Positions 387 to 54,690 of a stretch of DNA of 64,000 nucleotides are shown here, in pieces. Position 1 is the first letter of the stretch, and the number at the start of each line of letters is the position of its first letter. The position numbers and the translations under genes were made by a program. The stretch lies in the NCBI GenBank assembly GCA_030272155.1, contig CP126200.1, forward strand, positions 806,001 through 870,000, written 5' to 3'. Under the pieces are notes generated by a model. That model did not search any database. It saw only the letters and a program-made list of their open reading frames with translations, and was not told the DNA's origin. The stretch comes from Tetradesmus obliquus (Eukaryota > Chlorophyta > Chlorophyceae > Sphaeropleales > Scenedesmaceae).

Positions 387-450
387 AGACTATGGGCAAG
401 GTCAGTTCCTGGATCGTCCCTGACTCACCCGAGCCTGAGCTGGCGCGCCC
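387..450 (+). repeat. Echo of the PRMT5 536-721 exon start
   Basis: Reads GKVSSWIVPDSPEPELA against [17 protein letters not shown] in the real exon. It lies about 150 bases upstream, separated from the exon by the CTG run. It is too diverged to be an assembly duplicate. Confidence 0.8.
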
Positions 451-457
451 AACACCA

Positions 458-502
458 CTGCTGCTGCTGCTGCTGCTGCTGCTGCTGCTGCTGCTGCTGC
501 TG
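458..502 (+). repeat. (CTG)15 microsatellite
   Basis: Uninterrupted CTG run in the PRMT5 intron, 33 bases upstream of the acceptor at 535/536. CTG runs occupy this pyrimidine-tract position at several other introns in the window. Confidence 0.95.
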
Positions 503-535
503 CCACCTCTGGCATTTGCTTCTTCATCCCCGCAG

Positions 536-51617: not shown

Positions 51618-52101
51618 GACTGCGACCTGAGCGTTGCACGATCAACGTGAGGCTTTGACCTTGCCAACAACCAGCAGCAGAGGCAATCGATGCGCACACG
51701 CCTTAACAAGGGTTGAGATCAAGATTAAAATGGTACTTGCAAGCGTGTAGTCACGGGTAAGGCGACGTGGTTGCTTCTAATAGGAGCCAGACGGACATTT
51801 GTCAAATGCTTGTCAGGCAGGCCAGCTGTCGGGTTTGAAGGGGCTTACAAGCGCAATCGCAACCTGAAACATGCAAAGCACGGTGAATGACATCAATGTT
51901 ATGCCGTTTATTGAGCGGGCTGAGGCACACCTGTGCACCAAGTAGTCGACCTGCTTTCACTTGACATTACGGTGGCAAGCTGTTTGATCTCTCTAGGAAT
52001 CAACACGTATTACATTGATCTCTTACCTAAGCAAGACAATTGTTGCGTTGTGCTGCGATCACACACCAACCCCCACAACCAGCAGAGCAGCAGCAGCAAG
52101 A
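51618..52101. promoter_or_regulatory. Divergent promoter between ORP and Acinus
   Basis: 484 bases between opposing start codons. It is repeat-poor compared with its surroundings and should hold both promoters. No specific motif is recognised. Confidence 0.6.
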
Positions 52102-54314
52102 ATGGGCACCGAGTGGGTGGACGGTCTCAAGGTGACAGAGCGTAAGGAAGAGCTGAAGAAACGTGGGTTGCCGGTTACTGGTGTCAAGGCGATCCTTGCA
52201 GCAAGGCTCAAAGAAGCTGTGGAGGCGGAGGAGGTGCGCTGCTGCTGCTTGCTGCTGCAACGTGCTACCACCGGATGCATAGCTGCTGACACGCTGCAGT
52301 AGTGCAGCCAGTGTGCAATGGCTGCACTACTGCAGCATCAATGCGCCGTGCTGGGGATCATGCAGCAGCAACATGGCGCGCAAAGTTGTGTCATTGTAAC
52401 TATTGCGCTGGTGTGCTGCTGCTGCTGCTGCTGCTGCTGCTGCTGCTGCTGCTGCTGCAGGCTGGTGGAGAGAGCAGTAAGGAGCCGTCCCCAGCAGCAG
52501 AAGAGGAGGCAGCAGCTGATGACAGCAAGGCAGAAGCAGCAGCGGAGGAGACAGCAGCAGAGGCAGAACAGCCAGCAGAGGCAGAAGAGGCTCCAGCAGC
52601 AGAGGAGGCTCCAGCAGCAAACGAGCCAGCAGCAGAGCCAGAGCCAACAGCATCTGAGCCAGAGCCAGCAGCATCAGATCCAGAGCCGGCAGCAGCAGCA
52701 GAGCCAGAGCCAGCAGCAGCAGAGCCAGAGGCAGCAGCAGCAGCAGAGCCTGAGCCAGCACCAGCACCAGCAGCAGCAGCAGCAGCAGCAGTGCATGTCC
52801 TGCCTCCTGTCAGCCCTCAGGGCCATCCTGAAGAGCTGCTGGACTTTGAAGACAATGATGTAGCAGAGCAGGAGGCCACACCACCCCCTGCAGAGGAGGC
52901 AGCAGCAGCAGCAGCAGATGCCATGGATACTGACGAGCCAGCAACAGCAGCAGCAGCAGCAGCACCCACTCCATCCACTGCAGGCAAGCGGGCAGCAGAG
53001 GAGATGCAGCAGCCTGCTGAGGAGGCAGCAGCAGCAGCAGGCACGCCGCAGGATGGCGAGCAGCAGTCTGCAAAGCGCAGCAAGCGTGCACCCATCCCGC
53101 GCCCTGACCTGGCACTGCCAAGCCGCGAGCCACCTGCTGCTGCTGCTGCTGCTGCTGCTAGTGGCGCGGACAGCGCAGCAGCTGCAGCGGCAGGCTCGCC
53201 TGCACCAGCTGCCACGCCTGCAGCAGCAGCAGCTGCTGGCAACGATGCAGCAGCAGCAGCAGCAGACACACCTGCTTCAGCTGCCAGCGCTGGCGGCAGC
53301 GAGTACAAGCGCAGGCATGCACCCATCCCAGTGCCTCCTGCTCGCAGCGCCAGCCGGGAGCTTCCACGCCAGGCCAGCGGCAGCACCACTGCTGCTGCTG
53401 CTGCCACACCTGGCGCTGCTGCTGCTGCTGCCGAGCCTGCTGAGCTCACCCCAGAGCAGGAGCAGGCCATTGCTGCTGCTGTTGCTGCTGCCGGCGATCT
53501 GCCCGAGGGGGCCACAGCTGCGCTGCGCATCACCGGCCTGAAGCGGCCGCTGCAGCCGGCCGCACTGCGGCTAAAGCTGTTTGAGACAGGGATTGTGGTA
53601 GGCATGCAGCTCACAAAGATGAAGGACCGGGCCTGGGTGCTGTTCAAGGAGCCTGCACATGCACACGCTACGCGGCAGGCGCTGCAGGGAGTGATGTGGC
53701 CTGAGGGCAACAAGAGCAAGCTTGCACTGCAGTTCATCCCTGCAGAGCTTGCGCAGTATGCGATTGAGAATGAAGTGCAGCAGGAGCCGCCGGCAGCAGC
53801 TGTGGCGCGGCTGCTGCGGCAGGCCAGCGGCAGCAAAGATCAGCAAGGCGGCAGCAAGGAGGATGCAGAGGATGCGGAGGGCGATGCAGCAGCAGCAGCA
53901 GCGAACGGCGGCGTGCCGGCAGCAGTAGCAGCAGATGGTGCGAAGGCGGGTGGCGTGCGGGGCCGCGGCTCAGTGCAGGCTGCTGTGGCAGCGGCGGCTG
54001 CTGCAGTGCAGCAGGAGCCGCATGCGCCGCAGCAGCAGAAGCGCAAGGCGGCGCAGCAGCAGCAGCAGCAGCCGGAGCCTGAGGCGCCGGTGACACTGGA
54101 TGATCTATTCCGCAAGACAGTAACAAAGCCGCAGCTGTACTACCTGCCGCTGACTGATGAGCAGGTGGCGGCGAAGAAGCAGCGGCAGATTAAGGCAGAC
54201 AGTGCTGCCGCGGGGTCTGGTGGTGGCGCTGCATGTGGTGGTGGCGGCAAGTCTGAGCCAATGGGCACTGCTGTGATGGAGGGCCTGGCTCCCCGCCACA
54301 GCAACAGGCACTGA
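52102..54314 (+). CDS. ACIN1: Acinus-like protein (SAP domain, RRM-like domain, RSB motif)
   Basis: Scaffold of the ASAP/PSAP complexes, with SAP18 and RNPS1 or Pinin, which associate with the exon junction complex and splicing. Two exons with closing phases, 52102-52233 and 52461-54314, give 661 residues. Residues 1-44 form a SAP DNA/RNA-binding domain (KVTERKEELKKRGLPVTGVK). A long Glu/Ala/Pro-rich spacer and a basic KRSKR signal (about 250) follow. An RRM-like fold spans about 394-480 (AALRITGLKRPLQPAALRLK, RAWVLFKEPAHA). The RNPS1-SAP18 binding motif reads TLDDLFRKTVTKPQLYYLPL (about 588-610). Order and spacing match animal and plant Acinus. The single intron ends in a 15-unit CTG run directly at the acceptor. 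Confidence 0.9.
52414..52460 (+). repeat. (CTG)15 forming the Acinus 3' splice site
   Basis: A CTG run passes straight into CTGCAG|GCT, so the microsatellite itself serves as the pyrimidine tract of the only intron. Confidence 0.9.
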
Positions 54315-54690
54315 GCGTGTAGAAGAGGTGCTGTTTTGTGTACAGCAGCAAGCATGCAGCTGCGCAGCAGAGATGCAGCTGCAGCTGACTGGCTGCACGG
54401 AGGTTGGTGTTGCAGCATAGCGTTGTTGATCATGGTCATGGGTTCAGTTGCTGGCATGAGTACTGCTGGGATGGAGGGCCTGGCGCCCCACCACACCAAA
54501 CAGGCACTGGGCATGTGGAAGGGGTGGTTGTTTGTATGAAGCGGTAGGCATGATACTGCGCAGCAGAAATGCAGCACCCCACCACACCAACAGGCACTGA
54601 GCGTGTAGAACAGGTGCTCGTTGGTGCACAGCAGCACGCATGCAGCTGGGCAGCAGAGATGCTGCAGCTTGGTGGCAGCATGAAGGTTGG
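54264..54690 (+). repeat. Three-copy repeat of the Acinus stop region and 3' UTR
   Basis: The segment with EGLAPRHSNRH, the stop and about 90 bases of 3' flank is repeated at about 54455-54560 and 54575-54690 with drift. Shared words are CAACAGGCACTGAGCGTGTAG and GCAGCAGAGATGC. Later copies no longer join any frame. Confidence 0.88.

Follow-up and report, generated by a model that had tools for sequence, protein, structure and literature searches.

Partial copies of exon edges recur beside exon boundaries in the genome of the green alga Tetradesmus obliquus

Introduction

How introns lengthen, and where their added sequence comes from, is an old question for which few events have been caught. 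Among the closest described systems is the potato RdRp gene, where a single tandem duplication crosses an exon boundary and carries the branch site, the tract and the 3' splice site (PMC4974935). That case concerns one gene in which a new intron was made, whereas in the DNA analysed here the copies adjoin existing boundaries (100 of 554), are often serial and in about half of the cases end at the splice site. The AGGT tandem-duplication model also derives extra splice sites from local duplication but depends on an AGGT segment within the exon and yields a new intron (PMC3443670); the geometry here differs, as the boundaries already exist, 84 of 100 copies are on their intron side and the inner ends of the copies have no clear splice motif. 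Small tandem duplications arising from staggered breaks by CST/Pol alpha-primase fill-in are direct local copies, as are some of ours, but they follow nickase-induced breaks with ~50 bp overhangs in mouse and human cells, and the portion of that text considered here does not mention exon boundaries (PMC8355091). Newly gained Daphnia introns carry direct repeats of the adjacent exon's end, ascribed to staggered breaks; these repeats measure 4-12 bp and the new introns lie inside exons (PMC4202315). Introner elements are another route of intron origin, described as self-copying into many genes (PMC9860276), while both echo loci that we searched against the genome are single-copy, with no intron sequence shared among many loci. 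Finally, tandem or mutually exclusive exon duplication involves an exon copied in full, with its two splice sites and an open frame, and the copies described below are partial edges with frame-breaking indels and stops.

An earlier note on a stretch of T. obliquus DNA had described diverged copies of exon edges, here called echoes, beside the exons of at least seven genes, and knew of no named system with this pattern. The latter statement holds for the genome-wide, splice-bounded pattern, of which our searches of open-access literature found no description, and has to be qualified for a single boundary-crossing tandem duplication by the potato gene. Copies of a boundary's own edge, of graded age and present at 100 of 554 boundaries, would let intron growth be traced stepwise. 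Echoes are of two kinds: in some the likeness continues into the intron (run-on) and in others it ends at the splice site (splice-bounded), and the latter call for exon-limited exchange between near repeats or for a template that matches the exon only.

Sequence sample and gene models

The window, that is the whole 64,000-nucleotide stretch that was analysed (G000:C10:806001-870000), belongs to an assembly of 104.66 Mb in 17 contigs. A seeded script made 140 draws, from which 25 random stretches of 10 kb were obtained, 24 of them readable (L012 is all N); window and readable stretches together make up the 304 kb examined. Base counts give 57.0% GC for the window and the gene models a mean intron length of 436 bp, next to 57% GC and 462-bp introns in a published table for the species (PMC5966456). 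Exons are ab initio predictions of a semi-Markov gene finder self-trained on the 304 kb, which learned (C/A)AG|GTG(A/C)G donor-type and TGCAG|G acceptor-type motifs. We kept 316 of 417 predicted exons, dropping those with a low exon score, a low gene score or mostly simple repeat, and 554 of 624 boundaries could be tested, the remainder being too close to a stretch end or not splice sites.

Five of seven predicted window proteins matched Pfam families: PRMT5 (three domains), PEP mutase, eIF4E, an oxysterol-binding protein (ORP) with a glycosyltransferase-like C-terminus, and an Acinus-type protein with SAP and RSB. Pfam gave no match for the 14-21 kb gene or for the gene that the earlier note had called RPA34-like. 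One predicted minus-strand chain (40855-51617) links the oxysterol-binding protein to the glycosyltransferase-like C-terminus, and is probably two genes fused by the gene finder.

Results

Local direct duplications are spread over the genome

As is typical of small tandem duplication, the copies are in direct orientation. Self-BLAST of the window gave 39 direct and 6 inverted pairs less than 4 kb apart before complexity filtering, and the pairs left after filtering have steps that concentrate at ~95-155 bp and, as a second group, near 200. In the random sample, the first 19 readable stretches held 163 direct near pairs versus 1 inverted, so the local duplications are genome-spread and not peculiar to the window. 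Over the sample and the window together the steps peak at 95-150 bp, with a further peak near 240-260. The load is uneven, since four of those 19 stretches lack any direct pair and one (L020) alone has 47. The 270 pairs in the 304 kb group into 108 clusters. The share of boundary-linked pairs does not change monotonically with identity, and age therefore cannot decide between retention of duplications at boundaries and targeting to them. A separate tandem repeat with a 567-bp step extends over 2 kb at L030:1-2008 (88%).

Duplications favour exon boundaries and echoes lie mostly on the intron side

Kept predicted exon boundaries were spanned by 83 of the 108 clusters, versus 47.3±4.6 expected by circular shift, and none of 1000 shifts reached 83. 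Echoes exceed chance not only in the window but also in randomly drawn stretches, and duplications equally common away from boundaries, the outcome that the earlier note had said would refute the pattern, were not what we found. Clusters entirely within exons were fewer than expected (1 versus 5.1) and the coding bases inside clusters showed no excess (9422 versus 10323 expected); the signal is therefore tied to boundaries and not to coding DNA itself. Any echo within 500 bp was seen at 127 of the 554 boundaries and an edge-covering echo at 100. The side rule read earlier from the window, with start copies upstream and end copies downstream, proved general, 84 of these 100 being on the intron side. 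Echo coverage is maximal in the outer 10-20 nt of the exon (0.18-0.20) and falls to ~0.11 at 20-30 nt into the intron; in the middle of introns it is 0.15, in the middle of exons 0.06 and at randomly chosen points ~0.12. Taken together, window and random sample support local duplications that recurred at exon boundaries and differ in age.

The ends of the alignments are sharply placed. There were 61 ends, at 50 boundaries, between +1 and +15 nt past the boundary (~7 expected), 4 at -20..0 (10 expected), 8 at +16..+30 and 9 at +31..+100; a second excess, beyond +100 (41 versus ~18 expected), comes from the run-on pairs. The +1..+15 excess was present in the window alone (9 versus 0.7±0.9) and in the random sample alone (52 ends at 41 boundaries versus 6.3±3.6), and in neither did any of 500 shifts reach it.

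Microhomology at splice-like motifs was considered as a cause and rejected. All 2297 unused strong motifs together gave 45 ends at +1..+15 (23.8±5.8 by shift), and many of these motifs are the splice sites of echoes themselves. The 2051 motifs away from boundary-linked copies gave, as raw counts, 12 ends at +1..+15 and 6 at -15..0, versus 50 distinct real boundaries, and motifs may thus contribute to the pile-up of ends, but to a small extent.

Echoes in the window

Edge-covering echoes were found at 18 window boundaries: eight in PRMT5, four in the PEP mutase gene, three in the ORP/glycosyltransferase chain and one each in the eIF4E gene, the RPA34-like gene and the 14-21 kb gene. The echoes at two of these boundaries are weak, at 30723 (69%, on the wrong side and in CTG-rich DNA) and at 49572 (67%, beside a 27-bp minisatellite).

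In PRMT5 (plus strand), an exon-start copy of 472-593 lies at 331-446 (step 141, 76%), and the gene finder reads through both copies. The donor edge of exon 1009-1288 (1247-1291) has a splice-bounded exon-end echo at 1364-1408 (98%, step 117). Exon 2183-2388 has an exon-start echo for its acceptor at 2057-2097 (85%, step 109) and an exon-end echo for its donor at 2550-2594 (91%, step 200), and exon 3619-3790 has an exon-start echo at 3422-3456 (91%, step 196) and two exon-end echoes within 3850-4149 (3850-3930 and 4071-4149). Two exon-start echoes of exon 4601-4788 occupy 4317-4497, at offsets -244 and -136, while one full and one partial tandem copy of its end (4849-4996, step 99) include the donor and the following intron. 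Exon 5767-5931 has an exon-end echo at 5988-6037 (86%, step 104). The same gene region contains a (GTGC)n array of ~88 units at 99% identity (2992-3342).

The PEP mutase gene (minus strand) has exon-end copies of exon 9037-9223 at 8880-8952 (90%, step 155), where a low-scoring last exon is predicted over the copy, of exon 10589-10681 at 10470-10522 (87%, step 114) and of exon 12276-12399 at 12150-12213 (92%, step 113), together with an exon-start echo of exon 9415-9542 at 9625-9667 (89%, step 122). On the plus strand, two copies within 18809-19536 (18809-19128 and 19215-19536; 91%, step 406) each have a predicted donor, and a tandem-type echo at 21138-21211 (73%, step 115) repeats the acceptor region at 21301. 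The 14-21 kb gene has a minisatellite with units of 48/76 nt in its predicted coding sequence (19953-20151). The RPA34-like gene (plus strand) has a tandem-type exon-end echo of exon 36383-36978 at 37069-37200 (step 131), and two copies of its last-exon/stop region (38859-38947) within 38969-39161 (38969-39045 and 39111-39161), so that the stop-region copies reported 3' of a gene were found there.

In the ORP part of the chain (minus strand), exon 48581-48804 has an exon-start echo at 48864-48938 (83%, step 120), and exon 50644-50825 has one full and one partial exon-start tandem copy at 50883-51043 (step 100). Five of the seven genes named earlier thus have an echo at an assigned boundary. 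For the other two the copies are real but have no assigned boundary: they are the overlapping copies in an intron of the predicted chain, in its glycosyltransferase part (42171-42555, minus strand, steps 145 and 117), and three plus-strand copies (54261-54697) 3' of the large Acinus-like exon (52461-54219).

Series, filler and intron length

Two or more echoes accompany 35 boundaries, often at regular steps such as 118/236/354/472, and as many as four echoes were found in one series. In the random stretch L025, three echoes of an acceptor edge lie within one intron with seemingly unrelated filler between them, and donor-edge copies of the upstream exon recur at regular steps. With a search that skipped simple repeats and very common words, the L021 locus had no match elsewhere in the genome, and the L025 locus had only one more copy, within its own gene, and two short coding-sequence matches. 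A dispersed repeat or introner was rejected for these two loci, both being single-copy with filler that matched nothing elsewhere. At L026:4614-5566 whole exons are repeated at steps of 199 and 273, with edges 92-99% alike and little intron likeness; some of these copies count among the 100 edges, and copies predicted as coding were excluded from the divergence, synonymous/nonsynonymous, splice-dinucleotide and indel counts.

Bases inside clusters make up 16.6% of predicted intron sequence, compared with 12.9% of coding and 10.6% of intergenic sequence. The earlier suggestion of a route of intron growth agrees with the greater length of the 112 of 380 predicted introns that contain duplication DNA (median 353.5 versus 282.5 bp without), but longer introns also give more room, and the difference in length is no proof of cause. 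Local duplications may be one visible route of intron growth.

Two classes of echo, and a near-fixed step in splice-bounded pairs

Among pairs related by a single step, 26 are splice-bounded, with exon parts of 24-95 nt that are 81–98% identical; in example alignments 53-67 exon nucleotides agree at ~94-98% and the alignment stops a few nucleotides from the GT or AG with little likeness beyond. Wider local alignment of the flanks found matches in 17 of 43 splice-bounded pairs, perhaps from other echoes within the flank, and the single-step subset was used instead for this reason. As for contiguity of the whole unit, local alignment at p 0.05 detected flank homology in 17 of 18 run-on pairs, partly by definition as intron likeness sets the class, versus 3 of the 26 splice-bounded pairs, the other 23 having no trace of intron homology.

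In those 26 pairs a longer exon part goes with a shorter filler (rho -0.58), and the variance of the step is 273, versus 772 if the two parts were independent (permutation P 0.0002); the step stays near 124 bp (10-90% 107-152). Since the sum is fixed, the splice-bounded echoes too were probably born as tandem duplications, and this fixed step in the sequence suggests that they were once whole units. For the same reason, splice-bounded copying seems to us a less likely origin than a tandem unit whose intron half later lost its likeness. Median steps are slightly longer in splice-bounded than in run-on pairs (124 versus 109, p.03-.05), with shared ranges, and no frame-keeping of the step was evident from the pair lists. 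Exon shares of the step depart from an even spread (mean.43; KS p.007 against.2-.8). Divergence at first and second codon positions is similar (run-on.062, splice-bounded.053), so the splice-bounded pairs do not look older. In run-on pairs third positions diverge by.14 and the alignable introns by.092.

Discussion

The explanation that we prefer, tentatively and at somewhat below even chance, is that recurrent local duplications of ~120 bp persist where one whole exon remains, and that the likeness of the exon half is maintained by exchange with the exon under selection. Small direct duplications with a preferred step of ~100-150 bp, a pattern seen throughout the genome, would be the starting point. 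One that spans a boundary would leave a complete exon with its splice site and be expected to survive; as the spare edge falls in the intron, copies of exon starts come to lie upstream and those of exon ends downstream, which is the observed geometry. Copies wholly in noncoding DNA would fade, and the exon half would be kept recognisable by exchange with, or re-copying from, the selected real exon on the same chromosome or on other alleles. The process could be conversion or unequal exchange that stays within the conserved exon and splice site, and the outcome would be series of untranslated exon-edge cores, with unrelated filler between them, that lengthen introns.

Support for this explanation comes from the 95-150 bp step peak, the 163 direct pairs versus 1 inverted, the boundary enrichment, the side rule, the fixed step, the run-on pairs, the series, the apparently untranslated state of the echoes and the third-position exon differences. 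The latter are those of the real exon against all its echoes (3, 3 and 32 by codon position), a bias expected of a selected exon. Against it stands that the exchange is itself inferred, no such event having been observed. Moreover, exchange within a chromosome predicts changes spread evenly over codon positions, and the changes private to one echo are third-rich (78, 57 and 129), so that other alleles or a faster-moving exon must be invoked. The third- to first/second-position ratio is ~3, where a neutral echo beside a constrained exon allows ~2 at most; this excess, the main loose end, could reflect allele exchange, the use of a diverged allele as the source of copies, or serial copying from an exon in which silent sites change faster than intron DNA does. 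The similar divergence of the two classes, the synonymous excess, the 23 of 26 pairs without intron homology and the longer splice-bounded steps also count against it, as does the uneven exon share, since a fixed unit cut at random predicts an even one.

A possible though unlikely alternative is that the copies stopped at exon limits when they first arose: repair synthesis using a template that matches only the exon (a diverged allele, or RNA- or hybrid-bounded DNA) would insert an edge copy together with unrelated filler. The sharp ends at +1..+15 favour it, as does filler without a match elsewhere at the two loci searched, and the synonymous-type differences between exon and echo in both classes fit as well; the LHC paralogs L034 and L035, described below, have alignable exons with likeness ending 9-12 nt past exon 2. 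The step, however, is near-fixed whatever the length copied, and third-position divergence is as high (.14) in the run-on pairs, whose introns can be aligned (.092). In its broadest form, which we consider rather unlikely, a DNA-copying process would act throughout the genome with products that are splice-bounded from the start, reaching 1-15 nt past the boundary and placed ~120 bp off with unrelated filler, and splicing units would leave their footprint in duplication through a diverged-allele, RNA- or hybrid-bounded template.

Plain tandem duplication followed by neutral decay, in which the exon half looks better kept only through the constraint on the real exon, explains the orientation, the side rule, the run-on pairs and part of the boundary enrichment. 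We simulated such decay under six settings (indel/substitution 0.1-0.8) with 220 events apiece, counting the first qualifying match per event only, and detected 41-80 in each. Between 8 and 29% of simulated ends fell at +1..+15 and 42-78% at +31..+100, with no sharp stop like the observed one (61 and 9); the 41 observed ends beyond +100 are long units and series, which the simulation does not contain. In addition, five of the 26 single-step splice-bounded pairs combine an exon identity of at least 94% with a flank p above 0.1. Decay alone is thus improbable as a general account, and strongly disfavoured for the splice-bounded half.

It is very doubtful that the echoes function as alternative exon ends, or as splice decoys under selection, both put forward in the earlier note. 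The splice dinucleotides are mostly kept in the copies, as that note had seen (GT 45/52, AG 42/51), but the total of 87 of 103 differs little from the 76 of 103 for a control exon dinucleotide, which lends little weight to decoys. The exon-echo differences are rich in synonymous changes, with 287 synonymous, 167 nonsynonymous and 12 stop among single-change codons (neutral fractions.27/.70/.03); this excess, which would favour function, occurs in both classes, and stops stand in about the neutral ratio to nonsynonymous changes. Among the 103 echoes, which have 12 stops, 39 of 45 indels shift the frame and 6 are multiples of three, and 33 echoes have a stop or a net frame shift. The echoes therefore look untranslated, which speaks against a source of alternative exons, as do their inner ends: an acceptor-like motif occurs in 27% of 22 donor-side echoes (15% in controls) and a donor-like motif in 14% of 21 acceptor-side echoes (15% in controls). 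A reading of the echoes as mini-exons was rejected on this inner-end test, which gave no clear positive.

An assembly or gene-finder artefact is highly improbable: there is a single assembly with ab initio exons, and a few pairs are 97-100% identical, but most copies are diverged, stand in series in which as many as four echoes were found, lie in conserved genes with Pfam domains and give the same signal in both window and random sample.

Exon and intron divergence in LHC paralogs

Paralogous LHC genes in the random sample provide a calibration. Between L034 and L035 the exon pieces are 87-94% identical, and the likeness continues for 3-11 nt beyond exon 1, for 9-12 nt beyond exon 2 and for ~38 nt ahead of exon 3. 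Between L034 and L036, 3 of 320 exon 2 sites and 6 of 315 exon 3 sites differ, but 18% and 28% of aligned sites do so in two introns; the predicted proteins of these two paralogs are identical. Alike exons with diverged introns mean that exon likeness can long outlast intron likeness when both copies are selected; the LHC genes are clustered here and may be a special case. The near-identical exons of L034 and L036 would themselves fit exon-limited homogenisation or strong constraint. The L035 paralog has an extra 249-bp intron (L035:1327-1575) that is absent from L034 and L036, and this intron contains a diverged tandem copy (1370-1454 versus 1461-1536, 75%).
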